Assembly (NCBI GenBank): GCA_934045075.1 | Contig: OW203727.1 | Span: forward strand, 10,050,675 to 10,114,674 | DNA from: Yponomeuta sedellus | Taxonomy: Eukaryota > Arthropoda > Insecta > Lepidoptera > Yponomeutidae | Direction: 5' to 3' | Length of the DNA stretch: 64,000 nucleotides | In this document: positions 30,105 through 58,031 of the stretch, in pieces | Layout: each line of letters starts with the position of its first letter | Position numbering within the stretch: the stretch's first letter is position 1 | Notes under the pieces: generated by a model | Told to the model about the DNA's origin: nothing | Databases searched by the model: none | The model's input: the letters and a program-made list of their open reading frames with translations, nothing else | Program-made: the position numbers and the translations under genes

Positions 30105-30137
<33 letters not shown>

Positions 30138-31198: not shown

Positions 31199-31214
31199 AG
31201 GACCCGAACCCCTG

Positions 31215-31690: not shown

Positions 31691-32024
31691 TTTTTTCTAT
31701 GCTGTAACATTAGTAAGGCGCGTAAAGCGCCAGTTTCATAAAGTTATTTAAAAGTCGAGATTTAGAAAAATAACAGGATGAGAAAAGTCATAGGACTATT
31801 GCTGTTGTACAATACAACTCTAATTGAAGTTTTGCAGTTATGCGAATTTTAAAGGTAACATAGGCGTGGACCACACAGAGGGGACGTGAGGTGCAGGCGC
31901 GGAAAAGACGCGACGCGTTGTATAGTCACCGACCACAGAACTACTACAGAGCTCTGTGACTACAGAGTACTCGACCGTGACTCTATATATTTGTTCTCTC
32001 GATATTATCTCGGTACTTCTTTCA

Positions 32025-33252: not shown

Positions 33253-33850
33253 GATATCATTCCGATGTAAAACCTAACTGCAAAGTAGGTAGTCGGGGCT
33301 GTAAGTGATGCAATTTACTTAAGCCAGATGTCGCTGCCTGTACGTAATACAGAGAATAGTGTAAAGAGGTTCGAAATTTCACTGATGCCGGTGAGTCGCC
33401 CATTGGCTCAATTGGTAGAGCGCTGGCACGGATAGCCAGAGGTTGCGGGTTCGAATCCCGACATGGGTGAAATTTTTAGCCTCTGAATAGGTTTTTAAAT
33501 TTGTCCTTAGCACGGGTTAGTGCATTAAAAATAAAAATAGTATAATCATGTGGGTACAGTGATATCATTCCGATGTAAAACCTAACTGCAAAGTAGGTAG
33601 TCGGGGCTGTAAGTGATGCAATTTACTTAAGCCAGATGTCGCTGCCTGTACGTAATACAGAGAATAGTGTAAAGAGGTTCGAAATTTCACTGATGCCGGT
33701 GAGTCGCCCATTGGCTCAATTGGTAGAGCGCTGGCACGGATAGCCAGAGGTTGCGGGTTTGAATCCCGGCATGGGTGAAATTTTTAGCCTCTAAATAGGT
33801 TTTTAAATTTGTCCTTAGCACGGGTTAGTGCATTAAAAATAAAAATAGTA
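33188..33850 (+). repeat. Tandem dimer of the 308-bp tRNA-like unit
   Basis: Two consecutive units in the same direction. The cores start at 33397 and 33705, a period of 308 bp, with almost no differences. Each has 5' flank, tRNA-like core, TAGCCTCTAAATAGG flank and a spacer with GTAGTCGGGGCTGTAAGTGA. Confidence 0.95.
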
Positions 33851-34656: not shown

Positions 34657-37600
34657 TTATAAAGCTGTGGAGTCGGCGGCGGCGTATATGACACGCATGG
34701 TGTTGGTGAAGCCGGACCCCTGGCGCCAGCCGGAGACCAGTACCACTGGATCCCCAATGCGGATAAAACCGCGCTCCATGCCCCACTTGGCGCAAAAGTT
34801 GACGCGGTTCTCCAGGTCAGTTTGCCACTCCGGGTCCAGCGGATCTGAAGGGCAAGGGTGAAGGGTGAACCAGGGATTTACATAAAAGTCTTCTGTCGAC
34901 CTGACCACATAGTCCGACCATCTGACACTTGGTGTACCCATTGCCACATAAACATATCATTCATTAGTAATACTTTATTGCACATGAAACGTATTAGTAT
35001 TTTAATATAAAGATTTTATTTTAATTTTATATCACGACTCCTCCTATATTTTATTAGTATGCTTATTAAGGTTTAAAGTTGCCTGGAAGAAATTGCTATC
35101 AGCAATAAGGCCGCCAACTGTACCTCTTCTTTTGTAACTGTTGTCCCTGTAATTATTTTCTGGTGTGTACAATATTCTTATCTTATATAACGAATACGTT
35201 ACCCTGATAAAAGGTGTCGCATGTGTGCTAAATGTAATGAAATCAGTGTATGCGATTAGCTATTACTTCTCTACATTTACTATTACATTTAATTCTCTGC
35301 GCAAGCAGTCAAATGTCATTAATTTGTTCAGTTTTAGCTTCAGCTACAATGCCTATGATCAGATTGCAGTAGAATCTACAGCATTATTAGAATGCAAAGA
35401 GATATTTTCCATTGGCGCGCTTCTCGCTTCGGGAAACGCCGCCGCAAAGGTCGTAACTAACGAGCGTTTGAGAGGTTGGACTGCTAAATCTTCGCCCTCT
35501 AGGACCTTCTCTTTTGCCGACAAAGCAGCTTTGCAGTAACTCCCAAACTGGAGGAGTGAGGATGACAGTATGTTTGCTTATTGCCACAATGCGACTTCAG
35601 TGAAGGTCTAAGGCGATGAGCGAGTGCGGCTTAGTATGAACATTTCCTTTGTTAAATTTTGTTATAACTTTGTAGAAATTTAAAAATAAAACTTTATATG
35701 AATAAAAGTCACTTTTTGCGACTTTAGTATGGATATTGTTGCCATAATTAATATCTAGACTTATTTGCTAAGCTATAAAAAAATATGTAGTAGTATGTAG
35801 TCTTCGTAACTTCGCAAAAGTAGGTACCTACTTTTACGAATTTCTGTTTTGAAGGAAAACTTATTTCGTTTGCAGAATTTTCAGGGTTTACATTATATCA
35901 AAAGAACGAAGAGTGCACTGAGAAATGAATATTGGGGAATAGGTTCTCCAGCCGTGAAAAAGGTACCTATTCGATTCTACCGCATTGGATTACCGATGTT
36001 CGGTTGAGTTCGGTTTTTCCCAAGACATTATCTTTCGAGAAGTTAAAAGTCTCGCTCTACATACAAAGCTTTTCCCGGACAATTATTTTGGTGGTAATTG
36101 TTGACTTTTTTGTTCTGAAACCTTGGTATATTGGCCTTAAATTTGAAGTACAAGTACTTACTTAAAATTCAACAATATAGGTTTCATATGTCTCAATTGG
36201 GTTGGATATTTTACACCTTTATTGCCAATATTCTAGCTATCACATGCATACATATTATTATCTTTACAGTCAAGGTCTGAACTAACCCAAGAAAGAGGAC
36301 AGAGAATTGTTAGGCAGACTATGCTAATCAGGATACAGCTGATAAGCATTATTTCATTACGGTTCCTAGAATTAAATTCGAAAATTGGTATAAAGACGCA
36401 AAACGTAACGAGATGGCAGGCCACACCTACAACTAGGATTGGAAAACCAATATTTTTGGGTGGACTCACTATCACGGATCGCTTTTTTGATACCTTCAAA
36501 GACGACGGGTATGATGCCGCGGTACAGGTGCATTTGCCGTGCGATAGGCGCATATCGGGTGACGGCAAAGATGGGGCACCGCGGGCGGTACTTAGCCACC
36601 GCCTGGGCAGAGCGGCCCGTCGTGGTGACGGCTATAATGGCCGCCGCCATCACGCGCTGCGCCGCCAGCACCGCTGACAGAGCCGCCGCCGTCATTTGGT
36701 CGCACGGTATCGGCGTCTGCAGAAGACAGTCTATGTACGGTAAGGTCACAGAAACGGTTTTAGGTAACCATCAATACTAGAGTCAAGTTTTAGGTTGATG
36801 ATACGGAACACGAATGAAATAAAGAACCAAGAACCATTAAAATTATTCATAGATAGTTGGTATTTTTAAATTTATTTAAAAATGTTTGCTAAATTCCTCA
36901 TATTATAAAGAGGTTAACTGTTTGTAAATTTAAACGTAAGAATCTCGGAAACTTCTAATCCAATTTTAATCATGTCGTATTGGCATAGCTTACATCCATT
37001 CTATGTATATGACATATCATATAACATATACTGTTATATGATATCATCGCTCAGTTCAATGCGGGCAAAGCTGCGAATACAATTTATATCCTCTCTATTG
37101 TATGTAAAATTGCCACTATGACCATACAGTGTTTGGGATGTATTATACTTGTACCTAGGTGCATTTATTTTCACCAATAAAAGGTTGTTTCAACTTACAT
37201 ACATGCCTATTAGACGAGTGTACTTAGTAACCTCTCAGCATATCCCGTGTAGTGTCTAGAGTAGCTATAGGAACAGTTTTATTAGACAAATATTCCCTGG
37301 TATGACCACTAAAACTCGGATTAGTAGTAGCAAAATCAACATCTAAAGATTATCCAATAAGAGTCGTGCGTAAAAAAAGTCAATCTTTACCTTATCTACC
37401 AAGTCACGAAAAATCTGTTTACTCCAAATACAAGCTTCGGCCTCTTTGCAAGTCTGAGCGAGAGTCGCCACAGTTTCCACTGGGTATTCACCAACAGCAG
37501 TTTCAGCTGATAATATAAGGGAGTCAGCACCGTCCAGTATGCAGTTGGAGACATCCAGGAGTTCGGCTCTTAGCGGCAGCTTCCTATACCGCATGCTACT

Positions 37601-40556
37601 TAGTAGCTCGGCGCTTATGCTTACTGGGATGTTAACCTGCATAGAATGATTTAACGGTATGAGACGGAAAAAGAGGCATAGAACCAATGCCCAACGTTAG
37701 GCAGTGGATGGCTTTAGGGTTGTAGGTTTTAGGTTCACGAGGTTTTATTTTTCCACTTTTGAACCTTTGGCAGGCTGTGGTCTGATCTGTTAATATATTT
37801 CAGAATTATTCCTCTATTAATCTCTTCGTAACATTTTAAACATAACCGCATCCTAAAAACGTAGGATACATGTCCGGAAGCACTTTGCTCCTGGAAAAAA
37901 ATAAATGTAGTTAATACTTACCTTATTTGCTCTCGCAATCATATTTTTCTGAGCGATTACGAGCTTCTTGGGCGATATGTCCGATCCTAATTCCTGTCTC
38001 GATATTATTATGCCATTTGCCACCTTGGAAATTAGACATTTATTAAAATAATGTTTCTTTAAAGAAAGTAAAAAAGAAAAAGATTCTTTTTTACTCTTAA
38101 AGAGAGTAAAAAAGAAAATGATTCTTTTTTACTCTCTTTCTAAGAGAAGCCCTATGCCATGTAGTGAAACGCTTACGCTTCATAAAGAAAAACACTTTGT
38201 TATCAGGAATTGCCGTAAAACTTAATCTATAACATCCCCAGTATACTAGGGAATTAAGGCAAGTTGAGACTAGGTTTGTGTGTGTGTATGTGTGTGCGTG
38301 TTTGTGTTACATGTGTATGTGTATTTATGTGTGAGTGAGGGTATATAGCAACTAAGTATGGCTTACTTGCTGTAGTGAGATAAAATTTAATTACCCAACC
38401 CAACCTTATGTTTTGTGTATGTTGTTGTAAATATTATTATGGTCATCATCATTCAACTCACCTGCGAAATGGCGTCAAAATTGTTGAATCCCTCAATGCT
38501 TTGAATGTCCGCAACGATGCCAATTCTTTTCCCCTTTTCACCGAGTATTCCCCTCAGTTCAACGACCGCATCTGGTCCGTGAGTAAATGGCGTTACTACC
38601 AAATCAACCTTTAATAAAAAAATAATGTCCATAGTTACGTAAAATTGTATACATTATGTAAGTATGTACACACAATCTTAGTTAAAGCAAGAAAATATTT
38701 TTCACGCTAATGGAAGCACACTGGAAGAAAATTATTTGAAGCAAATTTATAAAATAACTGCATTTACCTGGTTGCTGATAAGCATTTCGATGTCGAGCTT
38801 ATCTTTGTCAGAATAGTTGGGCATGTTAAACACTACATTTGGAATATAAACGTCTTTGTAGGACCCGAGAAGACCACCGCGCACTATGATACAGGTCAAT
38901 GTCGTTGAAGAAATGACTTCTACTTTTAGCATTATTGTCTCGTTGTCGAGTAAAATTACATCGCCTCTGTTCATATGGTCGCCAAAGTTCACGAAGTCTA
39001 TAAACAAGGTGTTTGTCGTGCATCGTAATTTGTAAGTCTCATCCGATGTTAGTCTCACCGAGTCACCATTCCTTAGTTCAACTGTTTCTCCGTAGATCTA
39101 CAAACCAGAGCAATGTAGGTAAGTGGTACAATATTGTGATGAAAAAATTCACATTCATGGCATCATGTTTTGTTTTCCTTTTACTCCACACTTTAAAATG
39201 TCTTAACATTTAAAGCTAATTAATCAGTTTTTGCTTTTCAAACAAAATCAGATTAATTATAATTGTCTAAGACTTATCATCGTTATAATTGATACATTGA
39301 CACACACTGCTGATTATCTAATAGGCATCTTTATATTCACGACACTTTTCATGGCCGTGTACCATATGCAACCACAATTTGCTGGCTACTATCTCGGTTT
39401 CATGGTTTCTCATTTGTCTGCTGGTCGGCTAACTGGTTGTTTCTCCTTTCGAGGTTGCATTTCATTTGTTGGCTTGGATCATCTATCGTCAGTCCGCTCA
39501 GAAAAGTGCCTTACTCATTTGTATTTGAAAATTATCAGCCCAGTCTTCAACGTCTGAAACTTTGGTTCGACTTCTTATTACAAAATTTACTCCTCGGTGT
39601 AGTAGCCTACGCAAGCAACGATGGTTACAATTTTAAAAACGCAATTAATGCTGAAATCTTTTGTATCAAAAGTATTAAAATTAAGAAATTACAGATTTAG
39701 TATATTTTTATAACCTCAGCAATACGTCCGGTTCTGATTTTTCGGCCAGTGAGGCGCGCCGCAATTCCGAGCGGGTAGTTTCTGCCCATCCGTATGCTGT
39801 ATTTCTTGTTTGCAGCGCGCAGATGTTTGATATACTCGACATGTTCCTCCCGTGTATCAAACGACATGTTCAATAGGGCTATGTTCATTCCAGCTGCCAT
39901 CATTTTCTCCAAAGTATCGATGGAGGAACATTTTTTACCTAAAAAAATATTTTTAAGAGCTTTTATCAGTGGATTCTAAGATATTTAATTTCGACCTTCT
40001 CTGAATCCTTATAGAGATTAGTTGGGCAGAATTATTGTTGACTCTGCCCATAATCTGTTAGTGATCGAAATCACTTTAATCTGAGAATAAAACGAACCGA
40101 TCAAGCCCGCCGCCCCCAACTTTACCCACCAACCGTGCAATCTTTAAGTTAGATAATGGGCGATTTAACGATAAAAATGTAAAGGTTTAGCTGCTGTTGA
40201 CTGTAAATGTAATCGGGGGACGTTCGAATACAGATGCTTTTCCGATGCGAATTTGAACGCTTATAGATTTCTGAGCGTAGCTGTTACCTATGGTAGCGAT
40301 GATTCCAGTAAGACGTTGACATCCAGCGGGTGCATGGATATCCAAATTCATTAGGTGATCAAACGGTGTGCTAGCTTGTGATGCAGGTAGCTGCTGCCCT
40401 GGTAATTCCATCTTATCGTACTGGAAATGAGTACCATACATGGAAAGTTAAAGCGAAAGGAAAGGAAGTGAAAGGAAAGTAGAAAGCTATGGTGTATGTA
40501 ACGGGGTTGATACTTACTTCATCGAGGGTCGTATCAAATTCCGTGGGCCATACCAT
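34657..40556 (-). CDS. Pyruvate-kinase-like protein A (likely catalytically inactive)
   Basis: Nine exons join in phase on the minus strand: 40518-40556, 40288-40420, 39715-39938, 38768-39097, 38462-38608, 37922-38023, 37391-37636, 36494-36716 and 34657-34844. They give 543 residues (PK is about 530). The whole fold is recognisable: N-terminus MVWPTEFDTTLDE, A domain (GMNIALLNMSF), B domain (exon 4), second A-domain half, and C domain (TTTGRSA, KYRPRCPI, GWRQGSGFTNT). The active site is altered at nearly every key residue (muscle PK numbering, alignment offset +6): Arg73 to Leu79, Asp113 to Arg119, Lys270 to Asp276, Glu272 to Gln278, Asp296 to Glu302, Thr328 to Ala334. Asn75 and Arg120 remain. 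All splice sites are GT/AG and there are no stops, so this looks like a selected pseudoenzyme. Insects have testis-biased PK paralogues (known in Drosophila); that this is one is inference. The start at 40556 is set by the MVW N-terminus followed by a GTAAGT donor. Confidence 0.93.
34965..35165 (-). repeat. Dispersed repeat C copy (PK-like A intron 8)
   Basis: Begins with ATACTTTATTGCACATGAAA. Reverse of the core: GAAATTGCTATCAGCAATAA followed by GGCCGCC. It occupies the large last intron of PK-like A, between exons 8 and 9. Confidence 0.6.
38067..38139. repeat. Two consecutive hairpins in PK-like A intron 5
   Basis: Hairpin 1: arms 38067-38078 and 38084-38095 (12 bp, loop 5). Hairpin 2: arms 38099-38116 and 38122-38139 (18 bp, perfect, loop 5). 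The arms share AGTAAAAAAGAA. They lie about 45 bp upstream of the exon 6 acceptor on the transcribed strand. Confidence 0.95.
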
Positions 40557-42350: not shown

Positions 42351-45300
42351 TTAATCATTCATTATACAATCTCCTGTTTTTGCATTACCTAGTTTATTAG
42401 GGAGTAGATGCCAATATGAAACAATATCGTTGTACGAGCTGGTAGGTCCTTTCTCAAAAATCACGTAACGTTCATCGTATTTTAGGAGCCCCCTTTTAAT
42501 GCTGTATTCGATTCCAAACTGAATGCGAGCTGTCATCTCCTCATGCCAGTCTCTCATTGTTGGCACTGGTAAAAGAAAAGTCTTGTTTATAAATATGTAA
42601 AATTATTAAACAACATTTTATGATTAAAGCCATATTATGCTGTTATTAATCATAAGCTGCTGTGTGGTGTCGGCCTAGAGAATAGCACCAACCCAATTCT
42701 TCCCGCGGGTGTCGTAAAAGGCGACTAAGGGACACAAACCTGAGGGTGGGCAGCAGCGCCCCCTGCAGTACAATTCCAACAAACTGCGATCCCCGACCCG
42801 CATGCCCACCGTGGGGATTATGGGCATTACCCCCTATGAAAGCACAACGTGGCGCTCTTTAGGGGAGGGCTATGTCTAGCAGTGGACTAGTATAGCCTGA
42901 CGACGATGCTGCTAAGCTAAGCTAAGCGCTTGTGGCCTAGTTGAACTAAGTGATTGGAATCAATCACTTAAGTTAAGCAACAACAGGCGCGGTCAGGTGC
43001 AGGATGGGTGACCGTCCCAAGCCTACCGTTAGTGGCATTTTTCCGAGCGCTTCCGTGCTTCGCAAGGCACGTTAAGACGTTGGTGCCGGCTGTCATGTAA
43101 TGGCTGTCGCTAAGCCATGCCAGAGAACTTATGAGAGGTTTGATAACTTCTGACAGTAAGCCCGTCACTGTCTTACAATCTCCATCAACCCGAGCTTGGC
43201 CCCCATAGTGGAGTATGGCCTAACCTTCCTGTGGTGCAGGAACTAGTATTTAAACATTCGCAAAGCGGCGGGCAGTGACTGTATGAGAAAGGCCGAAGAT
43301 TAGGCTCAGTGGCGTGTCTTAAGAGACCATGTTAAAAAAATAATATTTACGTCTTTTCACCAAATTTGTGGGAGAATTTAAAAAAATATAAAGATATGAG
43401 CAAGTCATCATAATCCTTACCTACTCAGGATGAGATTGTAATATCTTACACTTACACATTTAGGATCAACTTTTCCTTCAATATACATGAAAAACGAAAA
43501 TCATGTTATGTGACATACGACATTTTGGAATATAAACGACGCACCGGCTGATTATGACTAAGCTCTACGAATGAGAGAGAAACCTGGTCGGACTCTTACG
43601 ACAAAACTTCAAGCGAGTTATTCCGGAAATAAATTCATAATTATTTTTGGGGTACTAAAAGATTGAAGAGCACATTTTGAAAAACATATTAACAAAATTC
43701 GGCTAGCGGTCAAAATATAATCACGAAGTTGTTTCACGAAAACGGAAAATTTCTCCAACCGGAAATAAAACCAATAGACTAAACATATCCAGTCATACAG
43801 CGAATTATAAAAATAAACAGTCATGAACATTCCACTACTTGACTCGTATAAAAATTGACGGGATAAATGAAGTATTTAACGTAACAAACGAAAATATATT
43901 GACTAAGGTTGATATTACACTTATCAAATATCTTTGTCAAATTTTGCTGTCAAATATTTTATAAAATTTCTTTGAGGTAAGCCCATTCCACTTGTCCAAT
44001 AACTATGTCCAATATTTTTTGCATAGTCTTAAGAAAATGGAGGAACGTGGAGCGTCTTCATGTGCTGCTATTGCGTCTTTAAGTGGTGCTATTATTATCG
44101 TTATGTAATTAATGAAAAACCAAAAGTCAAAACAAAAAAAGTATTTATTAAAAATTTTGTCATTGGAATCGTCCACGATATCTTGTTTGCAGCCATTTTG
44201 ATTTAAGTGTCATTAATATTTGATCAAATATCAGTGTTTCCAAGACATTTGATAAAGTCGTCCAATTTCTTCCAATTTCTTTGATCAAATCGTACATTGG
44301 ACAAAGATATTTGATAAGCGTAACACCACCCTTAGCTGAGTAAGTATGCAAGATGGCTGCAAAATTTGCAAATTAAAATAATATCAGCTTCAGCTTTTAA
44401 TTCGGAACGGTAAAAACGCTATCCGCCATTTTATAAGTCACGTCAGTTTCTGTCGACATTTTTATTAAAGGAATAACATCAGTGATCTTCACACACTCGA
44501 GTTTCAGTCGATAAAGAATCGGGTAAACTTGGGCAAAGTGTGTCCTTAGAGGGAGTTGTTATATCTCATATCTTTGCTCACCGAGATACACTATATCTCT
44601 ATCATATCTCGCTCACCACTTGTGTCCTAGCTCATTTGACGTCCAATCAACTAAGTGCGTGTGGAAACAAGAGACACAAATGGTGAGTCAGTCTAGTCTA
44701 CCTATTCCATACTTTATCAGATCACACGTTTTTTGGTGAACTTTCTTTCATATCTCGTTGGTTACGACGAGAAATGCGGCCAAATGTAACCGATGTCAGA
44801 CGATGTTGTTCTCGCTCTCGCCCATTGTGTGTGAGCTGGACAAAGTAGCTGGAGATGACTACCGTACTGAGTTGAGAGTATGACTGAGGGAGCCAGATAT
44901 AGTTGATATCTCTGGGATATGAATGGGACACACTTGATGGCGAGGGAGTTGTGTGTCCACTCATATCTGGCTCTTGAGTTACCCAAGGCTAGAATCGGGT
45001 TCTCTTTTCTCAAGTTAGAGCAAAGATTTGATAAGATTTTCGTATGTTTGTTTCACTGGGTACACGAATCCACAATTTCCTGGGGGTCTTTATCGACCAG
45101 TTTTTGACGTGTTCTCGAACAATGCAATTCCTAATGATAATTGCTATATTTTGCTCTCTCAATTTCATGGTTGCGTTGTTGTTATTTCACCATTTATGCT
45201 CACAGATTTTGAGACCAGGTACCTATGTTGAATGTCAAACTTTGTTTACAAGCCTCACGGACTTCAAACCATAGACAAAAACGGCTGACCGCGTTTTTGG

Positions 45301-48300
45301 CTGTTTAGCAAAGCAAAGTTTTAAAATAGATTTTTCTGTTGCTTTTAGGTCCTATATATAAAATATAATAAAAAAATATACTAAAATATTTTTTGGCATA
45401 ATGGAAGAGATATTTACCATTTAAGATTTGCTTGAAAAGAGAGTCAAGTAGCGGATTGGACACGAACGGATATGTTGATAACTCTAGTCTAGAAGGCACT
45501 AGAACAGTTGGGGTTTTCAACACCGAATATGTTAGTATCGAGGCTTTCAAAATGCTCTTGTCTTAAGCTTAAAGTAAAGACAAGAGCAATTCGTTCATCG
45601 TCAGATCGAAATGCTCTTCTCTTAGCCTCGGTTTCTAGTACACTAAGAAGCCGTTAATCTACTGTTAACAGCTGTCAGTTGATCAAAGTACATACAAAAA
45701 AAACATTTGACAGCTGTTAACAGTATATTAACAGATTGTTGAGAAACTGGGGGATAACCTTATGGTCTGTTTATGAAGTGAGCAAAAAAATCCCAATAGT
45801 ATTCATAAAAATAAAACCACTAACCGTCATAAACAACGGGGTAAATACCATTGTAAAAGCACAACTTATTTGCTACAAATGGATCCTTAGTAATGGCAAC
45901 AATGCCAGCTTCTGGGGACAAGCTGGCGAGGCTGATGGCCGCGCGGCCGGTCGACGAGATGAGGAATATGGCCATGGCACCGTATAATTTAGAAGCCAGA
46001 ACGCACGACATCGAGGCTGCTTCCGCTGCGTTTACGGGCATCTTAACCTGTTGAAAAATCACCCTTAAAGGAGATATTTTTTTTGTATGGAGCATGGGCC
46101 CACAAAAAATTGTGGCGTATAGAAATGACACATATAACGGTTCGGTGGAATAGGGGCTGTACTTGATGGCATTTTTTTCTATTTTTGAAAATAAGGAAAA
46201 ACAACGCTCAGTTCGAGACAAATTGAACTATAAATTATAAATGACACTCCAACTACTCCTGTCAGTGTCAGTGAAACGTCAAGGTATAACCATTTTAGCA
46301 AAAATCTTAAAAACACAATGAAATTATTTTTACTGAAATCTCAATTCCCTAAAACAAATAATAGTAAGTATATTTAAAAACCTATAATTTCACCCATGCC
46401 GGGATTCGAACCCGCAACCTCTGGCTATCCGTGCCAGAGGTTGCGGGTTCGAATCCCGGCATGGGTGAAATTTTTAGCCTCTAAATAGGTTTTTAAATTT
46501 GTCCTTAGCACGGGTTAGTGCATTAAAAATAGTATAGCACGGGTTAGTGCATTATAATAGTATATTTCATTACAATGCGGAAAGGCTGTCATTGCAAAGA
46601 GTTCGCGAGGGTTGACAGTCGGAACAAGTTGCAATGACGGTTCCGCACGTGTACTAAACGACTATTTCTAATACAGTTGCGAATAAATGAAGCAATTTAA
46701 TAAAGAAAAAATATTTGGAAAATGGCGCCAACCGTAAAAGAATATAAGCAGAATTTTTTTTTTCTTCACCCATTCTGGTAGGTAAAGGGCAAAAAACTAT
46801 GCCCATACAGCCAGCCTTCAGTAGGATTTTTTTTATTGGTATGAAATGAAAATGAAATTTAATGAGATGAAATGAAATGAAACCTAACCTAACTCATTCA
46901 ATCAAATCATTAAATCTGATATTGGAACAAATTAGTAGCTTCTTTTTATAAATATACGTATTTGCATGAATCATAAAAACTTCTTTGATTTTTTTTAGTA
47001 AAAACTTCATGGCTGGTTTTTCTTTTTAATAGACATTATTTTGACATTTGGGAAAGAGAACGCACTAGTGCGGGAAAGGTAAAAAAAACCACGAGTGTGT
47101 AATAGCCCACATCCCGCACGCTATACGTCCCTGCAATACGCCACTTTTTGAGCAACTGTATTAAAAAAGTACATAAAACATGATCTAAACATAATCTTCT
47201 CATTGAAATGATTGATTTTGTTTTTTATAACCTATGATCTGGTTTTAATAGTTATCTACGCCTTGACTTTAAAAAGAAGGAATGTCGTGGTATTACATCG
47301 CATTTTAAAAATTTATTTTATGATTCCCGTTTCATTTAAACGTAATCTTTTGTGTAATTGTCTAAAAAAATAAGTTATTAATTTAGGGAGTAAGGTCATC
47401 ATTATACGCTACCGTTGCTACTGGGCCCAAAAAAATATGTCTCCTATAATATAATCTGACTTTGTAGAGGAGTTTCCACTCGAACCCCTAAGGACCAGAC
47501 TAGCTAGCATTTTTTGGGTCAGACTTGGATTATCTAAGTTGTGTTTCTTTTGTTATTTTGGAGCATCTAACGAGAAGGAAAATATTGTAAAGAAACCCGA
47601 GGCTTGGTTGGCTCCGAACGTAATGAAAACAATGTCTTTCCTATGGATGAGACCAACGAAGCTCAAAGTATTGTGTAGGAGTAGGCAAGTTTACTTTGAT
47701 TAAAATACAATATGTAAGTTATTGGTCAACAGTTGTAATAAGTCAATTGGAAATCACTCTACTGATTCCCACAATACACGTTATGCCTAGTGTAAGGATA
47801 ATTGTTATCATTACTTCAAAATCGAGTAACTTTGCATTGTACCACATCTATCTGCTTGGAATTTCACATAGAAAGAATTAGAATAATTTTTGAATTTTAT
47901 TTATTTGATATCTTATAGCAGTACCGTAAAGTAAAGGAAAACATCGCGAAGAAACCGGAGTGCCTGAGGGAGTTAGTGCATTACTTGTCACTTTCGCTAA
48001 TTCGTCACTATCGTTAATTCGTCACTTTCCCGATTCGTCAATTTCTTAAAAATATTTATTTCGCCAACATCTCTAACTCGTCACTTTACCTGATTCGTCA
48101 ATGTACAGTCAAACTCATAAAAGCGAAGAAATGTATAATAGTATAGGTATAAGTAGGTACAGCGGTCATATTTTTTTTTGTTAGTGTTTATTTTTGCTTC
48201 ACGCCCATATTCCCCTCATGGAAGTAAGCAGAGAAACCCACTAAGGTAGATGCTCACGTTTTACCAGGCATATTCAATTAAATTCAAACATTTTATTGCA

Positions 48301-51300
48301 GATATCATATTGTTAGTATGCAAAAAGGTATAGGCCTAATTGACGTCTACTTTCCGGTCAGTTCAATTTCTTTTCTTTTCGTATTCTTGACACATTCCAA
48401 ATATTTGTTGACAATTATTTAACAAAAAATAATATACTTAGTTTCAGTTGTAAAATGAGAGGCACTGCATGCAGATTTCAGAACTAGACAAACAGGCATA
48501 ATGTTCCTAATAATAATAGGACACGGCGGTCGATTACTTTGGATAAACGTATCATAAGTTTGGTATCTACTTTTATGATTATTGACATTTTTGAGCTACA
48601 TGGACGTACTGAAATCTGAGATTGCTTATCAAAATTATCTCTCATTAATACACTAAGAAACAATAAACGCATCCATTAATATGTCTTACTTATTTTCTTT
48701 TGGGTTTAAAAATAAATAAATTATAACTAAGGTTTTCTGGCATAAAATCTTCAAATCATAAGTCATAACCACGTCATAACACTCCAATTGATCAACCTCA
48801 TCAGAGCTTGACTGTACAAAAGAAAACAACAATTGACGAATCAGGGAAAGTGACAAATTAGGGATATTTACGAGTTAAAGATTCTTAATAAATTGACGAA
48901 TCGGGAAAGTGACGAATTAACAATAGTGACGAATTAGCGAAAGTGACAAGTAATGCACTAACTCGCCTGAGGTATTCACGTATCTCAGCACTTGAAATTA
49001 CCATTCGCGGAGGTGAAGTTCATACTATTTCTCTAAGAGAAGGCATGTTCACTGCAGTGGACATAAAAGAACTGTCTGAAGCGTTACCTCTTCGTGCAGT
49101 CTCCAAAAATCGTGCTTTGCAGAAAGAGGCTCCAGAGTTTTAGTGAAATCATCGAGTATAGTCAATGCTTTGCTCAGGCTAGTAGGGTTGACAAAATTCT
49201 TTATGATGACACCGGCTCCATCAAGAAAAGCGTTCGTTATATCTGATATATCTTTGAGGGCGATACGTCCAGCATTCATGGTCTCGTCCAAAATATTTCC
49301 GGACACGAAAAAAGGTTTTCCAGCCTAAAACATTTTTAGCTTACAGAAATACATGTAAATAATCAGGGATTATTGAAAATATGTAAATATAAAGTATTGA
49401 AATGTATAACTATGAATGAACATCCCAAGTCAGTAAATATACTTTAGAACAATAGAAAGTCAGGAGGTTAGATGTTTTAAAAACGCCTCGCTCATGCGCA
49501 GAAGTAGGTCCAGCAACAGTAACAGTACACACAGCCTTAGACCCTGTCTGAAAAATTTTATACTCTAATTCTACGAGCATTCTTTCTCTGAGAGAAGACT
49601 TGTGCCCTACAGTGGAATACAGGCTATAAGTTAGGCCTGTAGTATATGTGTTACATAAAAAATATTTTGCAGCACTAGATAGCAAAGATAATTTGTTCTT
49701 ATCCAATTTATTCTCGTGCAGTAGACGACGCTGGCTTTTCTGTATTAAGTTAGGATTATTTTATGTTTGAGCCATTATTGGTAAGAAAATATAAGACGAA
49801 TTAAAAATAAATGTATATTTTTTCGTGAGCGTCGCAAATTATTAAAATACAATGGAACCGAAAAGGTAGGTAATTTCAGGATATGTCCAGGAAAAGGAAG
49901 GACTAGACTAGTATCTAGTCTCTACCTTCTTCTCCGGGATGCAGGCGTGATCTTATGTATATTTTAAATACCTGTTTACATAAGGCTGTAATATGCCACT
50001 GTATAGCGGGCATCTTATGAATATCGAGAATTTCATAAGCGATGCATTCTCTCGCTAATATTATACCATCTGCTTCCTGTAATTTGAATAATTATAATGG
50101 GTTATTTTTAAAAAAAGATAAAGTTTTGGCTCCCGTGGTGGAGTATGGCCTAATCTTCCTGCGATACAAGAAGACGATGCACCCGTGCCCCAGCAGTGGG
50201 GACATACAACGGCTGATAACTATAATTAAGTTCTAAGAGGCAAATAAAGGCTATTTTATTTTAAGTTATTTTTATAATGAAGTTAAAATAAGGTTTGTTG
50301 CAGTTTATCTACTTTGTGCGATAAATGCTTAAAATGGCGATTCCCTTCATTGTTTTCAGGAGGTTACTTCATTGATATCGTACCTTTTGTAAGCGCAATT
50401 TAATAAAACTATGAAGACCATAAATTTCGAGAAACATAAATCGCAGACAATACTAAAAAAAAAGTTTAATTAAAATACACCAATACAGCAAAAACCCAGT
50501 CAAGAGTTTCAGGATTTTTGCTGTATTAGTGGGGTACGAGCATGTGCTAGAGAATCGGCATATTATTCAATTTATACATACTTTTACAATTTTTTCAGCA
50601 TTCTCCAACCCTTCTTGCTCACAAATTGCAGCTAATATCAAAGGTCTGTGTCCGTTTTCATATTCCAACATTTTCCGAACTTTCCTTATGGTTGCCGGGT
50701 AACGGATATAATTTATAGTAACTACGTCCAACTGAAATTTGTTGATGAATTGTATTCCACTAGCTGGTTATTACTACTAGCTAATCTGGTAAACGCTCGA
50801 CAAACGGAAGCGCTCGTGGTCTAGTCAGACCGAGTGATTGGAATCAATCACTTGAGTTAAGCAACAACAGGCGCGGTCAGGTGCAGGATGGGTGACCGTC
50901 CCGTGGCTACCACTAGTGGCATTTTTCCGAGCGCTTCCGTGCTTCACAAGGCACGTGAAGCCGGTGGTGCCGGCTGTCATGTAATGACAGTCGTTAAGCC
51001 ATGTCAGAGGCCTTATGGGCGGCTTGATAACTTCTGACCGTAAGGCCCGCCACTGCCTTACAATCCTCTGCTGCCTTCGGGCCGTGTTGTAGTGGAGAAA
51101 AAGCCAGCGGGAAAAAACTCCACTCTGACCATGTTTTCTCAAGTCATCTTAAACCGAATATTGAAATTGAAAAATGGTTTGATTGTAAATACATAAGTTG
51201 CCACATTATAATGTATGTGCATGTATGTGCTTGTATGTAAATATTATATTATGTTATGTTATAACATTTCAGGATTGCCATTAATAACTTTAAATGTCAA

Positions 51301-54300
51301 AGCATTAGTTAAATGTCTTAGAACACTAGGGAAAACATAAATGCTGACTCACGAACAGCACTCGTCCACGAGCATAACTAGCAGAGGAAGTCTAACTGTC
51401 TACTCTAAAGTGATCTAAATACATTGTTATTTCTACAATTCAATTCAATTCAAATTATTTATTTCAGACAATTAGTCCATATTTACATTTAACATTTTAA
51501 ATTATAACATACGAGTAATATTTGTGTCAGTAAAAGTCTTATAACTATGTTAATACAATACAATCAAGCAGGTTCTAAAGGAGTAATAAAAAACATTAAT
51601 TAAATAGGAAATTATTATTATTATACTGTATTGCACACGAAACATTTAACAGGACATTACACAAGAAATAACATGTACAAAGGCGAGCTTATCTCCGAAA
51701 GAGATTTCTTCCAGCAAACCTCAGAGAGTCGGAGAAGCAGTAAAAAGCGGGTCTATATACGTGTACAAAATATACTACACTAATACTGAATAACCTACCT
51801 AACTATGAAATAAATAAATGAACTACATAAATATATAGCTCAATGTTACGACAGAGATAGATAATGCTCTTTCAACCGCTTCTTAAATGTACTAACAGTA
51901 GGACTAGCGCATATCTTACCATATTGTCTAAATTACCTTAAACTCCTTAGCAAACTCAAGTAGTGTCAGATCCCTGACGGAGAGAGGTCGTCTCGCGTGC
52001 TTCAAGCCTCGAATGCTAACATAACAATTAGGCTCCAAGTATCCTTCTACCAACACCTTGCAAATTATATTCTCAGCGTCTATTAATTTTGTACAAAATG
52101 TGATAATTTTTCCGCCATTGAGTGTAACTTCCATGCCAACTTTAATATTCTTCAATGTCATAGCGTCATCTACATAAATTATATCTTCCGTACAACTGTA
52201 CATGTAGGTTGTATCACTTGTCAATTGTATCTGGCTATCTTTTTTTATTAGTACTTCCGTATACTCTAAATTCTGTAACAATTAAGAATGTACAGATCAG
52301 TTAACCTGCCAACCTGCATCTATATAATGAGATGATTTATAGATCCTTCAGTGGCATCTTCACACACACTAGATAGGCGAAGGGACCACTCGGATGCAGC
52401 ACTACCTGTGACATGGTTTTATATGGTGTAGGCTTGCCCAGCACCTACACCGTTCTGACAACTTAATCAGCCTAGCCCACAGGAAAGACTGTAACGCAAC
52501 GTAATAAGAACTGGAACGACTTCAGGTGTGGTTTTATTTGTAGATTAGTAGTATAATATTTTAATAAAACAGAAAACTGGATAAAAACGGATAAACGGAG
52601 AAGCAGGTAAAAAAGTCAGATCTGGTCAAAGGGTAAAGTAGTAGTGATGAAAAATGAGGGAAATCGAAGAATGTGTGACGTAATTTAAATATTTGAAAAT
52701 GATAGATAGAAAAAGAAATGAAAATGGTGTGAAGAAAAGACTAGTCGATGCGTGCGGGAGCAAACCAAGCCGCGGGTTTCCTTACGATGTTTTTCTTCAC
52801 CGTTAGCGTGTGGTATTGCGACTAAAAATTCGCATTAATGTACTTAACTTTGAAATTAAACAAAGTCATTAGTACCTACATGCCCGCACTGGGGATCAAA
52901 CTTGGTCTCTCGCTTGCGAGTCCATTGATGTACCCACTGAGCTAAAACCGCTGTCAACGCTGTACAGATCAGTGAAGCATATCACATCACACTAATATTA
53001 TAAAGACGAAAGTTTGTGTGTATGTTTGTTACTTCTTCACGTCTAAACGGCTGGAGCAATTTTAATAAAATTGGGTAAGGAGTTAGCTGACACCCTAAAT
53101 AACATAACATTTACATCCAAGCACATACATTGCTTCTGGCCCCACACTAGGATACCCTGTGTCGTGGGAACCAGAAACAAAGACATCACAAACATGTAAT
53201 CAAACTGAGCTTTTTTTTTGTTCCCAGCCGGGATTCGAACCCGGGACCTCTTGCATGGTAGGCAGACGCGCTATCGCTACGCCACAGAGGTCATCACATT
53301 AACACAGGCTACGATTTACTGCGGGAAAATTTCTTATTCCCATGGGAAAATCGATAAAACGCGGGTAGCACTGTGGGGCACAGCCAGGAAATTATAAGCC
53401 TGAATAATTAGGAGCAAACGTAGGGCTTCAAGCGGCCAAAGACTGGTAGGCTGCCTCACGCAGAAGTTGCGTGAGCTCCAGCCAGGTTACTAGCAAGAGA
53501 TCGCGCAAGACAAAGACTTGTGGCAAGTTCTTGTAACAAAGAACAAGACACACTTCGGGTCGCTGAGCTAGCGGGATAAGTATATAATTAATAATAAATA
53601 AATAAAGCGAAGCGCTCGTGGCCTAGGCGAACCGAGTGATTGGAGTCAATCACTTGGGTTAAGCAACAACAGGCGAGGTCAGGTACAGGATGGGTGAGCG
53701 TCCCGTGACTAAGCTAGTGACATTTGTCCCAGCGCTTCCGTGCTTCGCAAGGCACGTTAAGCCGTTGGTGCCGGCTGTCATAGAATGGCAGTCGTTAAGC
53801 CATGTCACAGGCCTTATGGGCGGCTTGATAACTTCTGACAGTAATGCCCGCCATTGTCTTACAATCCTCCACCTACCCGGACTTGGCCCCCGTGGTGGAG
53901 TATGGCCTAACCTTCGTGCGATGCAGGAAGAGACCTGTGCCCTAGCAGTGGGGACAAACAAGGGTTGATAACGAAATAAATAAAATAAATATTCATTGAC
54001 ATATTACACAGATCTCGTTAGCCCTATACTAAGTAAAACTAAATTACTTGTGTTATAGGTGCTAACTCGACGATAGATTTAATACAATAAATACATAGAT
54101 AACATCCAAGACCCGAGAAAAACTAGAAAAGTTCGTTTTCTAGTTTGACCCGGCCGGGGATCGAACCCGAGACCTTCGCGTGTTACAGTCAGCGTGCAAA
54201 AACCACTGCGCCACCGAGGCCGTCTCAAAATACTAGAATAGTAATATTTTTCTGCTTACTTTACTGAAAGTTCCTGTTCTAATAGCAGCATTGGGTAAAT

Positions 54301-57300
54301 CTATAGATATGGCTATTGGCCAATAGCTTTTCGTATATTTTTCACAGCACAACTTGACAGCTGATTTGAGAACATCGAGCAGTTCTATTCTGTCTTCTCT
54401 GGTGATGTAGCCCATGCGGAATCGACATACGTGCAGGCCAGCTTCCATCATGTTTTGGAGATCAATGGGTGTTAGTCCCGCTGCACCTTATATTAGAATT
54501 AAGGTTGTTGAGGAACTTGTTATGAGGAAGGGGACGAAGAAGAGGAATATTTTAAAATCGATTTTGAGGAATAGCATGAGGATGACGAATCTGGCAGACT
54601 AAGAGAAAGAAAATGACGAGGAAGAGGATCCAGGAGCCTTCTCTCTCTCTCTCCCTCACACATTTTGTTTCAACAAAACTTTTAACTTTCCTTCCTATTA
54701 AATTCCTCTTAAAATATGAGGAATTTAATAGGAGGAAGTGGATGAGGAACCTCAAAAATATAAGGAAGTTCCTCATTTTGAGGAGAGTAAGAGGAGTCCT
54801 CATCAACCCTAAATAGAATAGGTTATTAGAGTAGCATATTAGAATAACTAGTATAGTGGCTAAGGAGATGATTTATACAGCGTCCAGTGGCATATTCACT
54901 AACAATAAATGGGTGAAGGGACCACTCGGATGCTGCAGTGCCTGGGATATGGTTTTAGTTGGTGTAGGCTTGCCCAAATGTTTTCCTTCACCGTTAGCAT
55001 GTGCTAGTGCGACTGCAAATTCACAAATGTACGTAACTTTGAAATTAAACAAAGTCATTGCTACATGCCCGCACTGGGGATCGAACCTGGGTCTCTCGTG
55101 CGTGTCAAAGTGAATCACAGGTATTGTGAAATCCAATGTTACATACATATATACATACATACATAACCTTACGCCTGTATCCCAGAGGGGTAGGCAGAGA
55201 CCAGGGACTGCCACTTGCCACGATCCTGACAGATCACCTTCGCTTCATCATCGTTCATAAGTCGTTGCATGCACGCCCGGTTCCGGGTACTTTTAAACGG
55301 AAACCGACTTGTTGAAAGTTGAATGAACATGACATTGAACCAATTTCGAAAAATGCGGAACCGCGTTAGTGCAAAGCGGAAAACGGATCTACTATCAGAA
55401 AAGCGGAAAAAAGCGGAAATGCGGTACATCTGGAAACACTGATTGGCTCTCAAAAAATGCGGAGGGAAATTTGAAAATTGAACAGTAGGATTTTTACTTT
55501 TAAATAATCGACGTTTTCAAAACAATTACAAGTGGCCAGTGTCTTATACATAATAATTTTTTTTCGGATAACTTTCTGAGTGGCCTGGTGCATACATAAC
55601 CTCACGCCTGTATTCCAGAGGGGTAGGCAGAGATCAGGGATTGCCACTTGCCACGATCCTGACAGATCACCTTCGCTTCATCAATGTTCATAAGTCGTTG
55701 CATGCACGCACGCCGGTTCCGGGTACTTTTTATCTTTCCCTTTGCAAATACATCCCCTATTTGGTAGATGTAAGTCCGTCGGGGACGTCCCTTACCAGCC
55801 CTTCCCCTCACATTAACAATATATATTTGTTTCGTCACTCTTTCTTCCTTCATCCTCTCCACATGTCCAAACCAACGCAACATTCCTTTCTCAATTCTAG
55901 TCACTATATCCTCTTTCAGTCCACAACGTTCTCTAATCAGACTATTGCGTATCCTGTCATTCAAAGTAACACTACACATACTTCTCAAGGACCTCATTTC
56001 AACAGCATTAATTCTACTTTCTTGCTTTTTTTGCCACACCCAAGTATCGCTACCATACATAAGTGTTGGGACCAGCACGCCACTATGAATAGCCAATCTA
56101 GCTCTTTTGGAGATGTTTCGGCTGCACACAATGGAGTGCAAGGCATCGTTTACACAATTTTCCGCTTTAACTCTTTTTTAGGGTTCCGTACCTCAAAAGG
56201 AAAAAACGGAACCCTTATAGGATCACTTTGTTGTCCGTCTGTCCGTCCGTCCGTCCGTCTGTCAAGACCCTTTTTCTCAGGAACGCGTGGAGGTATGAAG
56301 CTGAAATTTATATCAATTACTCAAGTCTACTGTCCCTTGAAGCTGTGAAAAAATCAAACTTCTAAGCCAACGCAATCAAAAGATACAGCCGTTTATGCCG
56401 CAAATTTTCGACACTTGCAAGGGAATCAAAACCTACAGGGTGCTTCCCGTGAACTCAGAATCTTGAAATTTGGTACGAAGCAACGTCTTATAGTATAGAT
56501 AAAGGAAAAATTACGAAAACCATAAATTTTTAGTTACATCACATATTATATATTTTTTTAATAATTTTAAACTTACTACCCATTTCCTCATAAACGCGTG
56601 GAGGTATTAAATTGAAATTCATACCTAATACTCAGGTCTATAATACAGGTTTGTACGGAACCCTTGGTGCGCGAGTCTGACTCGCACTTGGCCGGTTTTC
56701 TATATCACTTTCACACTTTCCATCTCTCGTAAACAGACTCCCCAAATAGACAAATTCTTTTACTTGTTCCACTCTTTCGCCTCTAATCGTTATCTTGCAC
56801 TCAATCATTTCATCACCTTTTTCAAAGACCAGTACTTTCGTCTTACTCACATTCATGTTCATACCTTTCCTTTAAAAAGCCTCATCCATTACCGTGACTT
56901 GTGTCTGCAAATCTTCGACCGACGATGCAAACAACACTTGATCATCGGCGTACAACAAGCATTTCACAAGTAGCTCACCCATCTTTATCCCACATTCATT
57001 CTCTTTCAGATCAGTCAGGCAACATCCCCTGTCTCACACCCTTGCGGATGCTAAACCAGTCAGTATACGCCCCATTTATTCTAACGCAAGCCCTGGAGTC
57101 TTGATAGAGACTTCAGAGCTCGCAGCAAGATGCTGTCCACCCCATACACAGACAGTGACGACCACAAGTCATTCCTCAATTTCAATGTTACAATTTCCAT
57201 AAAAAAAAGCGTAGCTCAGTGTCGTGGCATTTTCTCATACAAGAATCGAACAGAAGAGACAACCCCTAATTATAAATCATCACACATATATAACTACACT

Positions 57301-58031
57301 AATATTATAGAGGCGAAAGTTTGTTAGTGCGTATGTTTGTTATTTCTTCACATTCAAACGGCTGGAGCTATATTAATAAAATTTGGTATGGAGTTAGTTG
57401 ACACCCTGGATTAACACATAGGCTACGTTTTACTGCGGGAAAATATCTTATTCTCTAATAAACCGCGGGTAACACCGCTGGGCACAGCTAGTGTTAAAAT
57501 AAAGATATCGAGATAAAGTTATGTATGCAACGACTAACGAACTTTGATGAATTCAAGGTGATTTGTCACGATCGTGGCCAGTGGCAGTCCCTGGCCTCTG
57601 CCTACCCCTCTGGAATAAATAAATATTTATTGACATATTACTCAGATCTCGATAGCCCTATACTAAGTACAACTAAATGACTTGTATTAGGTGCTAACTC
57701 GACGATAGATTTAATACAATAAATACATAGATAACATCCAAGACCCGAGACAAACTAGAAAAGTTCATTTCCTAGCTTGACCCGGCCTGGGATCGAACCC
57801 GAGACCTTCGGTTTTACAGTCAGCGTGCCAAACCGCTGCGCCACTGAGGCCGTCGATACAGGCGTTAAGTTACGTAAGTATGTAATATTACTGTTGCTAC
57901 AGGTATTATATGAAAAAGTACTTACATAACGTGACAATGAATGGAGTAAGTTTGTAACGTCTTTCTTCTAAGAGGAACTCTTTTTTGTGCCTTTGAAGCA
58001 CAATTTTATCTTCCAGATCTATCCAACCCAT
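42351..58031 (-). CDS. Pyruvate-kinase-like protein B (divergent pseudoenzyme)
   Basis: Eight coding exons join in phase on the minus strand: 57926-58031, 54260-54486, 51937-52272, 50582-50731, 49972-50076, 49088-49324, 45825-46047 and 42351-42565. They give 532 residues. Intron phases (1,0,0,0,0,0,1) equal those of PK-like A from its exon 2 on, and the C-domain exon is 223 bp in both. Catalytic changes: Asn75 to Arg59, Lys270 to Ala258, Glu272 to Cys260, Asp296 to Cys284 (ARGDLG became ARECIA), Thr328 to Gly317. Arg73, Asp113 and Arg120 are kept. The effector loop GWRxGxGxTNT is lost (now EKGPTSSYND). No frame is broken. The ATG at 58029-58031 (AAAATGG) follows a good acceptor at 58035, so an upstream non-coding exon, or a coding one, is possible. 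Introns are long and packed with repeats. Confidence 0.9.
42645..42915 (+). repeat. Dispersed LINE/SINE 3' repeat (PK-like B last intron)
   Basis: Contains CCGCGGGTGTCGTAAAAGGC, GACTAAGGGACACAAACCTG and GGGCTATGTCTAGCAGTGGA, sequence that recurs widely in moth genomes at the 3' ends of retroelements. Confidence 0.65.
42920..43245 (-). repeat. Dispersed repeat B copy
   Basis: Minus-strand, nearly full length. Starts at GCTTGTGGCCTAGTTGAACT and runs to the GGAGTATGGCCTAACC end. Confidence 0.8.
43903..44335. mobile_element. MITE with about 35-bp inverted ends
   Basis: Ends CTAAGG...CCTTAG. The terminal repeats share CTTATCAAATATCTTTGTC. It is 433 bp, with no coding capacity, in an intron of PK-like B. 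No clear target-site duplication is seen. Confidence 0.7.
45553..45588. repeat. 12-bp hairpin
   Basis: Arms 45553-45564 and 45577-45588 (TGCTCTTGTCTT and its inverse), 12-nt loop. Confidence 0.9.
45660..45725. repeat. 18-bp inverted repeat
   Basis: The arms 45660-45677 and 45708-45725 are perfect reverse complements around 30 nt. They lie downstream of PK-like B exon 7. Confidence 0.95.
46378..46560. repeat. Palindromic tRNA-like repeat (PK-like B intron)
   Basis: Perfect 38-bp arms 46387-46424 and 46434-46471 lie around a 9-nt centre (CTATCCGTG), which is the anticodon loop of the reverse strand. The plus-oriented side continues into the normal 3' flank. A 20-nt piece with GCACGGGTTAGTGCATT is duplicated at the end. 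Confidence 0.95.
47575..47690 (+). repeat. Dispersed repeat D fragment
   Basis: Contains GAGAAGGAAAATATTGTAAA and GAGGCTTGGTTGGCTCCGAA, matching 21.3 kb. Confidence 0.6.
47970..48964. mobile_element. 995-bp non-autonomous DNA transposon with 8-bp target duplication
   Basis: The terminal inverted repeats are at least 73 bp with one mismatch (start GAGTTAGTGCATTACTTGTC). They are flanked on both sides by GCCTGAGG (47962-47969 and 48965-48972). The ends are built of 16-17-bp subrepeats with ATTCGTCACT. No transposase. An 8-bp duplication fits hAT, P or Mutator-like elements; the terminal bases are not typical hAT. It lies in a PK-like B intron and is nested in a repeat D copy. Confidence 0.9.
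49890..49950 (+). repeat. RTE LINE 3' end scrap
   Basis: TCTACCTTCTTCTCCGGGAT followed by GCAGGCGTGA resembles the RTE 3' terminus. It ends just beyond PK-like B exon 5 (49972). Confidence 0.45.
50125..50215 (-). repeat. Dispersed repeat B, end fragment
   Basis: GTGGTGGAGTATGGCCTAAT and GTGCCCCAGCAGTGGGGACA match the end of repeat B. Confidence 0.75.
50805..51070 (-). repeat. Dispersed repeat B, truncated
   Basis: Matches the 53600-53975 copy from GCGCTCGTGGTCTAG to ACAATCCTC, then departs. Confidence 0.8.
51615..51735 (+). repeat. Dispersed repeat C copy
   Basis: Contains CTGTATTGCACACGAAACAT and CGAGCTTATCTCCGAAAGAG followed by ATTTCTTCCAG. Confidence 0.6.
52320..52980 (+). repeat. Dispersed repeat F plus tRNA-like end
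   Basis: Repeat F start (52320-52500) is followed by unrelated sequence. Repeat D core (52770-52820) is then followed by a minus-strand tRNA-like head at 52890-52975 (GGGGATCAAACTTGGTCTCT, GAGCTAAAACCGCTG). Confidence 0.65.
52990..53400 (+). repeat. Dispersed repeat E interrupted by a SINE
   Basis: The repeat E left part (52995-53100) and right part (53300-53400, GGCTACGATTTACTGCGGGA) are separated by a family 1 SINE at 53100-53295 in minus orientation. Confidence 0.85.
53100..53295 (-). repeat. tRNA-derived SINE, family 1, nested in repeat E
   Basis: Read on the minus strand: GACCTCTGTGGCGTAGCGAT (A box), then GAGGTCCCGGGTTCGAATCC (B box), the body TTTGTGATGTCTTTGTTTCT and the tail ATGTAAATGTTATGTTATTT. 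Confidence 0.9.
53600..53975 (-). repeat. Dispersed repeat B, full-length copy
   Basis: Nearly complete reverse complement of the 3199-3565 copy. Starts at GCGCTCGTGGCCTAGGCGAA and ends GGGGACAAACAAGGGTTGAT. Confidence 0.85.
53976..54225 (-). repeat. tRNA-derived SINE, family 2 (copy 1)
   Basis: Minus-strand head: GACGGCCTCGGTGGCGCAGT (A box) and AGGTCTCGGGTTCGATCCCC (B box). The body has CTAGTTTTTCTCGGGTCTTG and it ends in an AATAAATATT-type tail. Same family at 57613-57860. It sits 35 bp from PK-like B exon 2 (54260). Confidence 0.9.
54530..54830. repeat. Purine/pyrimidine-biased low-complexity block with hairpins
   Basis: A GAGGAAGAGGA and CTCTCTCTCTC tract, then a perfect 16-bp hairpin with arms 54693-54708 and 54718-54733. 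A weaker CCTCAAAA/TTTTGAGG pair follows. Confidence 0.85.
54860..55110 (+). repeat. Dispersed repeat F/D composite
   Basis: Repeat F start (54865-54975) is joined to the repeat D core and the end GCCCGCACTGGGGATCGAAC, without the segment seen in between at 52 kb. Confidence 0.7.
55150..55292 (-). mobile_element. 5'-truncated RTE fragment with TATG tail
   Basis: The 3' end CTTACGCCTGTATCCCAGAG is preceded on the plus strand by ATACATACATACAT, the reverse of the TATG tail. Coding match to the other RTE copies stops near 55290. Confidence 0.85.
55440..55600 (-). mobile_element. mariner right-end fragment joined to RTE
   Basis: Nearly identical to 13368-13512, the right end of the mariner. It ends abruptly at GATTGGCTCTC on the left. 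The join to the RTE is the same as in the 13.5 kb copy. Confidence 0.9.
55582..57130 (-). mobile_element. RTE-type LINE, interrupted by another repeat
   Basis: Reverse transcriptase (RQG-like motif near 57030, KTKVLVFEKG and VKEFVYLGSLFT at 56640-56860) and a C-terminal region (55602-56141: LMYGSDTWVWQKK, MLRWFGHVERM, KSTRNRRACMQRLM). A repeat of about 530 bp splits the frame at about 56167-56698. The upstream RT and endonuclease parts are missing or decayed. It lies in PK-like B intron 1, same strand as the gene. Confidence 0.88.
56167..56698. mobile_element. Repeat H inserted in the RTE LINE
   Basis: Begins AGGGTTCCGTACCTCAAAAG and ends GGTGCGCGAGTCTGACTCGC followed by ACTTGGCCGGTTTTC. Contains a short GTCC microsatellite (56233-56265). 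I recall this sequence as very abundant in Lepidoptera. A diverged end lies near 62915-62965. Confidence 0.75.
57295..57495 (+). repeat. Dispersed repeat E
   Basis: The best copy here: AGCTATATTAATAAAATTTG, GAGTTAGTTGACACCCTGGA and the end GGGTAACACCGCTGGGCACA followed by GCTAGT. Confidence 0.8.
57520..57612 (+). repeat. RTE LINE 3' scrap, opposite orientation
   Basis: TGCAACGACTAACGAACTTT to CTCTGCCTACCCCTCTGGAA, the plus-strand sense of the RTE C-terminus. Confidence 0.7.
57613..57860 (-). repeat. tRNA-derived SINE, family 2 (copy 2)
   Basis: Closely similar to 53976-54225 over its length. It is 66 bp from PK-like B exon 1 (57926). Confidence 0.9.

Follow-up and report, generated by a model that had tools for sequence, protein, structure and literature searches.

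Testis-expressed paralogues of pyruvate kinase (PK) that are predicted to be inactive are already known from flies. In Drosophila, most non-canonical paralogues of sugar-metabolizing enzymes are described as testis-restricted and many as predicted to be inactive (PMC11836677, available part), and CG7069 and CG11249 are reported mainly from adult testis (PMC10755183, likewise in part). In the silkworm, a full-length-cDNA study lists pyruvate kinase, together with carboxypeptidase and beta-tubulin, among duplicated and clustered testis-specific genes (PMC3755909, Table 6, as far as the accessible text goes). Here, we describe a PK paralogue, called A, from a 64,000-nucleotide stretch (the window) of the genome of the moth Yponomeuta sedellus (contig OW203727.1, positions 10,050,675 to 10,114,674). 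A occupies window positions 34657-40556 on the minus strand. On the sequence evidence, it forms a tandem pair of lepidopteran PK pseudoenzymes with a second paralogue, which we call B. What is apparently new, not having been recognized in the literature searched, is a lepidopteran clade of A-type proteins with a partly fixed, rebuilt pocket that contains two K+-independence residues, and the linkage of A to B. No description of the active site of a lepidopteran PK paralogue was recognized in the titles and abstract openings of that literature.

Gene A was rebuilt from nine minus-strand exons with GT..AG introns, which run from an ATG at 40556 to a stop codon ending at 34657, splice in phase and contain no internal stop. 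Exon number, phase and limits agree with the preliminary description of the locus. Stops, frameshifts and broken splice sites were looked for in A, and none were found. With the exon 9 acceptor at 34844, which is preceded by a pyrimidine-rich tract and lies in phase 1, the predicted protein has 543 residues. This is the length of the Ostrinia orthologue (P0001), and the commonest length among 53 proteins (A and 52 of its 59 relatives, see below). An alternative acceptor at 34892, leading to 559 residues, was rejected; its 16-residue insert is missing from human PKM and Aedes PK1. The 559-residue version was used in the Pfam search, the search for relatives and the first comparison with PKM and Aedes PK1. 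A belongs to the pyruvate kinase fold family, with both domains above the Pfam cut-offs (PK, PF00224, E=7e-78, 262.4 bits, cut-off 30; PK_C, PF02887, E=9.6e-30, 103.5 bits, cut-off 28). Chance resemblance is excluded by these E-values and by 59 relatives at 53-72% identity. The AlphaFold model of P0001 (mean predicted local distance difference test score 82.8) matches PK structures, with a large whole-chain root-mean-square deviation of 16-18 Å in which the C domain of the model is of low confidence.

Residues are numbered as in human PKM (chain 4qgc). The offset between A and PKM, previously given as a constant +6, is the same at all 7 intron positions that can be aligned to PKM, and the six substitutions R73L, D113R, K270D, E272Q, D296E and T328A are all found in the alignment. 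In addition, A carries P53K, H78F, T114L, E118K, D178N, G179E, G295Q, E300D and K367V. Five residues of an active PK (Lys270, Glu272, Asp296, Arg73 and Thr328) are all replaced. The search for relatives returned 251 proteins at E<=0.001, of which 120 were listed; the best 59 of these 120 are taken as the A clade, and P0060-P0092, 33 of the 61 listed matches below rank 59, serve as the canonical-type comparison. Gaps are set aside in the tallies. Arg73 is lost in 58/58 A records (Leu in 38), His78 in 58/58, Asp113 in 59/59 (Arg 41, Lys 7, Gln 7) and Lys270 in 55/56 (Asn 46). Other positions have moved to a common new state, namely Thr114 to Leu and Glu118 to Lys (58/59 each), Glu272 to Gln (55/56), Gly295 to Gln, Asp296 to Glu and Glu300 to Asp (59/59 each), and Thr328 to Ala (52/58). 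Asn75 (58/58), Arg120 (59/59) and Lys207 (56/58) are retained. All 33 canonical-type proteins keep every tallied residue, including R73, D113, K270, E272, D296 and T328. The earlier judgement that PK activity is very unlikely is borne out by the survival of Lys270 in 1/56, Glu272 in 0/56, Asp296 in 0/59, Arg73 in 0/58 and Thr328 in 5/58 records. It is close to certain, as predicted from its residues, that A is not a working PK. Missing from it are residues with which a PK binds phosphoenolpyruvate (PEP), Mg2+ and K+ and transfers phosphate, and it has kept the PK domains, length and frame.

Because several substitutions are fixed across the clade, the pocket has been rebuilt and partly constrained, and not merely dismantled. 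The term dismantled, used for it previously, calls for correction: part of the pocket is rebuilt and constrained, and part (positions 73, 77, 113 and 53) evolves at an average or faster rate. The canonical set has 179 invariant sites (>=97%). Of these, A shares the residue at 70, has a different residue fixed at 15 and varies at 94; this comparison covers 53/59 A records, with the partial models or isoforms P0046, P0051 and P0056-P0059 left out. The rate, length and pairwise-identity analyses also left out P0036. Four of the 15 refixed sites fall among 13 positions taken as the substrate and metal sites of PK (Fisher p=0.015). In A, these 13 sites have a median relative rate of 0.28, below the 0.68 of the other barrel positions (p=0.016) and above the 0.08 of the same sites in canonical PK. 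The slow pocket sites are 114, 272, 295, 296, 328, 118, 178, 179 and 300, at the 2nd-27th rate percentile. All 59 records keep the frame, and at several of the substituted sites the new residue is fixed, in line with the earlier suggestion that the preserved frame points to another function. Purifying selection on A is predicted, from the conservation of the protein, with near certainty.

The names attached to the 59 A records are lepidopteran, except for the metagenome record P0048, and indicate about 51 species. All 59 are 53-72% identical to the window protein; among the matches listed, identity is <=44% below rank 59, with the exception of P0096, a partial Eumeta protein (59% identity) that lies outside the 59 and also has the RQEL motif. 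Twenty of the 59 (19 species), taken as a sample, form one group with window A, with support of 100/99, or 100/100 in the tree without B. Within it, window A groups with Plutella (99/96 with B, 93/96 without B). The median pairwise identity within A is 68.0% (53 rows). Between Plutella and Aphomia, A is 63.9% identical vs 88.0% for canonical PK, and window A is ~44% identical to the canonical PK of Plutella and ~43% to that of Aphomia. Descent of A from the canonical gene of Lepidoptera was neither demonstrated nor rejected by the approximately unbiased (AU) test (p=0.347, with only two lepidopteran canonical rows). Arctia plantaginis has two A-type proteins, P0034 and P0055, on contigs that differ in size. 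The two pair in the trees (96/85 and 98/93) and are possibly a recent duplicate in this species.

Two of the refixed positions are known from work on the cation requirement of PK. According to the available part of PMC4374775, a Glu at position 117 of rabbit PK makes the enzyme K+-dependent and a Lys makes it K+-independent; the rabbit E117K variant functions without K+. Position 117 is given there as Glu in Eukarya and as Glu or Lys in Bacteria, and Lys117 is said to covary with Leu113, Gln114 and a hydrophobic residue at 120. Rabbit positions 117, 113, 114 and 120 correspond to PKM 118, 114, 115 and 121. Leu114 and Lys118 occur jointly in window A and in 57/59 A records. Gln115 and the hydrophobic residue at 121 are missing, the window having T115 and T121 and the relatives P/S/A/T/V/Y at 115 and T at 121. 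Among 52 distant matches, those with names being bacterial and P0129, P0190 and P0191 being left out, 23 have Thr/Glu at 114/118, 23 have Leu/Lys and 6 have other combinations. A has thus arrived at two of the four K+-independent signature residues, most simply by convergence. Lys117-type residues are present here in an animal PK paralogue, although Glu117 is given for Eukarya (PMC4374775, available part); plant plastid PKs lie outside this comparison.

B, which the preliminary description did not mention, lies head to tail with A at 42351-58031 on the minus strand, 1794 bp upstream of the ATG of A. It has 8 coding exons for 532 residues without a stop, and its seven introns are phased as the last seven of A. 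Stops, frameshifts and broken splice sites were looked for in B as well, and none were found. The acceptor-like TTACAG just before its ATG may mean that another exon lies further 5'. Relatives of B comprise 16 records from 12 lepidopteran species (P0121-P0128, P0150-P0157). Gaps again set aside, they keep Lys270 in 0/15, Glu272 in 0/15 (Cys in 13), Asp296 in 0/16, Thr328 in 0/16, Asn75 in 1/15 and Lys207 in 0/16 cases, and have Glu for Gly295 in 16/16; Arg73 (15/15) and Asp113 (15/16) are retained. Window B is 42% identical to the nearest row (first coding exon excluded), a sign of fast evolution. Judged by its predicted protein, B is an intact PK pseudoenzyme that evolves faster than A. A and B records lie on contigs of equal size in 9/12 species having both (Ostrinia nubilalis, Battus, Papilio polytes, Anticarsia, Plodia, Chilo, Helicoverpa armigera, Arctia and Leguminivora), which is evidence of linkage and not of adjacency. 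The two Chilo gene numbers, evm_011811 and evm_011813, differ by two. The contig sizes differ in Manduca, Papilio xuthus and Pararge, possibly owing to different assemblies. Battus, Papilio xuthus and Helicoverpa armigera are represented by two B records apiece. When B is included in the tree, it stands with A on one side of the split from the canonical rows (98/92), a join that may be an artefact, the B rows being long branches.

We give an even chance to the reading that A is a non-catalytic, ligand-binding PK-fold subunit in testis. As such, A would make no pyruvate, and the clustered testis-specific PK genes of the silkworm lead us to expect its expression in the male germ line. It may work as an oligomer of the PK fold, made up of A alone or of A together with B or canonical PK. 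The rebuilt pocket could still hold a phosphorylated ligand, probably a nucleotide, via the retained Asn75, Arg120 and Lys207. Lys118 occupies the position at which a lysine substitutes for the cation in K+-independent PKs. In developing sperm, A would then serve as a subunit with a regulatory or structural task, and not as a glycolytic enzyme. A testis role is likely, and the silkworm listing, in its accessible part, is the best pointer that suggests a role in the male germ line. Several points speak against this reading. The silkworm testis PK genes appear without gene identifiers in the accessible text, and are tied to A and B by inference. Two papers on lepidopteran sperm proteomes and one on the silkworm testis transcriptome do not use the word "pyruvate" in their main texts. 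Moreover, the pocket is mixed, with sites 73, 77, 113 and 53 at the 66th-87th rate percentile and sites 78, 270 and 367 near the middle. Finally, the 14 positions of the fructose 1,6-bisphosphate (FBP) site show no slowing relative to the other C-domain positions (median 0.86 vs 0.68, p=0.37). In view of this last result, a separate reading of A as an FBP sensor lacks support; W482 and R489, which belong to that reading, are each present in 57/59 A records. The word "pyruvate" is absent from the main text of PMC11837612, too.

Alternatively, A could be a purely structural sperm protein, a metabolic fold used as an abundant scaffold with its pocket conserved only for packing and stability. Sperm leucylaminopeptidases (S-LAPs) are described, in the sources as far as available, as structural components of the paracrystalline material in sperm mitochondria, are found in lepidopteran sperm, and are required for eupyrene sperm in the silkworm; the loss of ligand residues in A would fit such a scaffold. 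However, the retention of N75, R120 and K207 and the fixation of polar or charged pocket residues go beyond the apparent needs of packing, and the proposal seems unlikely. A new enzyme, in which the rebuilt pocket (Gln272, Gln295, Glu296, Asp300, Lys118) catalyzes another reaction, would explain why pocket positions are refixed and not free, some of them with a polar or charged residue in almost every one of the 59 records. The usual metal- and phosphate-handling residues K270, E272, D296 and R73 are gone, though, and no substrate suggests itself, which makes this quite unlikely. It is very improbable that A is a still active, K+-independent PK with altered kinetics. Leu114 and Lys118 in 57/59 records, and the rabbit E117K enzyme that works without K+ (PMC4374775, available part), are in keeping with it, but K+ independence leaves unexplained the loss of K270, E272, D296, R73 and T328, which 33/33 canonical-type proteins keep. 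Practically no probability attaches to a decaying pseudogene that is intact here by luck. Catalytic residues are lost and A evolves faster than the canonical gene (the Plutella-Aphomia values above), yet 543 codons lack a stop, there are 59 orthologous records, and the rows share a median identity of 68.0% and fixed substitutions. In view of zero stops and 59 conserved relatives, the pseudogene reading was rejected.

A more specific version of events, which we regard as doubtful, joins these observations. The pocket of A would be partly convergent with bacterial K+-independent PKs, in that Lys118 and Leu114 took the place of the K+ site, and the metal/PEP site gave way to Gln272, Gln295, Glu296 and Asp300. 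Since then, the rebuilt pocket would have been maintained throughout Ditrysia, serving the male germ line as a new centre for ligand binding or catalysis, with B, which is linked and differently rebuilt (Arg73 and Asp113 kept, Asn75 and Lys207 lost), as the partner.

Coding exons of the PK paralogues A and B (window coordinates; PKM residue numbering)
Feature	Position	Strand	Remarks
A exon 1 with ATG	40518..40556	-	N-terminus type MVWPTEFD shared with P0001
A exon 2	40288..40420	-	
A exon 3	39715..39938	-	R73L, H78F, D113R, T114L, E118K; N75 and R120 kept
A exon 4	38768..39097	-	B domain; D178N, G179E; K207 kept
A exon 5	38462..38608	-	K270D, E272Q
A exon 6	37922..38023	-	RQEL motif: G295Q, D296E, E300D
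A exon 7	37391..37636	-	T328A, Q329E, K367V
A exon 8	36494..36716	-	C domain begins; FBP-loop equivalent TTTGRS
A exon 9 with stop codon	34657..34844	-	pyrimidine-rich acceptor, phase 1
B coding exon 1 with ATG	57926..58031	-	acceptor-like TTACAG just before ATG
B coding exon 2	54260..54486	-	R73 and D113 kept
B coding exon 3	51937..52272	-	
B coding exon 4	50582..50731	-	K270A, E272C
B coding exon 5	49972..50076	-	G295E, D296C
B coding exon 6	49088..49324	-	
B coding exon 7	45825..46047	-	
B last coding exon with stop	42351..42565	-	1794 bp upstream of ATG of A

Elsewhere in the window, tRNA-Ser(GGA)-like copies lie on the plus strand at 3075-3151, 26822-26895, 33397-33470 and 33704-33779, to which Rfam adds weaker ones. 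The last two sit in near-identical repeats a short distance downstream of A, an arrangement that a tRNA-derived short interspersed element (SINE) would produce. The block 30001-32000 is GC-rich (56% vs about 34-43% elsewhere) and crowded with overlapping open reading frames (ORFs) on both strands. A short-period repeat array at 10903-11344 can be read, again on both strands, as open frames in which YIHT or CMYV recurs. On the minus strand, two ORFs at 12445-13236 resemble what we take to be a broken mariner-type transposase, and an ORF at 4812-5096 presumably resembles the start of the splicing factor AAR2.

Flies keep several testis-restricted, apparently dead paralogues of glycolytic enzymes, the purpose of which is left open in the available portions of the fly papers. 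With A in about 51 named Lepidoptera and a linked B, the purpose of dead paralogues becomes testable in the silkworm, for which gene removal and sperm-morph assays exist. In public records, A-type proteins mostly go by the name "pyruvate kinase" or "pyruvate kinase-like", a label that would lead metabolic models astray.

The fly PK paralogues other than Pyk (CG7069/Pykl1 etc.) resemble A and B in being diverged paralogues alongside a canonical gene. Pyk and Pykl1 are adjacent, as are A and B, but A and B have each other as neighbours, and no canonical PK was seen within the 64-kb window. The testis pseudoenzymes of the Pykl type have, like A, lost catalytic residues; no fly PK paralogue came up among the matches listed for A and B. 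The canonical insect enzyme (Aedes PK1, 6du6) has the same domains and length as A, and P0001 is 45% identical to it over the fold match. In contrast to A, 33/33 canonical-type PKs keep the six residues R73, D113, K270, E272, D296 and T328. With the K+-independent PKs, A shares Leu and Lys at PKM 114 and 118 (57/59 records), but it differs from them in lacking Gln115 and the hydrophobic residue at 121, and in having lost the catalytic residues found in active PKs. S-LAPs, as far as the available sources describe them, are akin to A as read here in placing a metabolic-enzyme fold in a sperm role. This likeness is one of analogy only, since their fold is unrelated, and presence in sperm is described for S-LAPs and only proposed for A.
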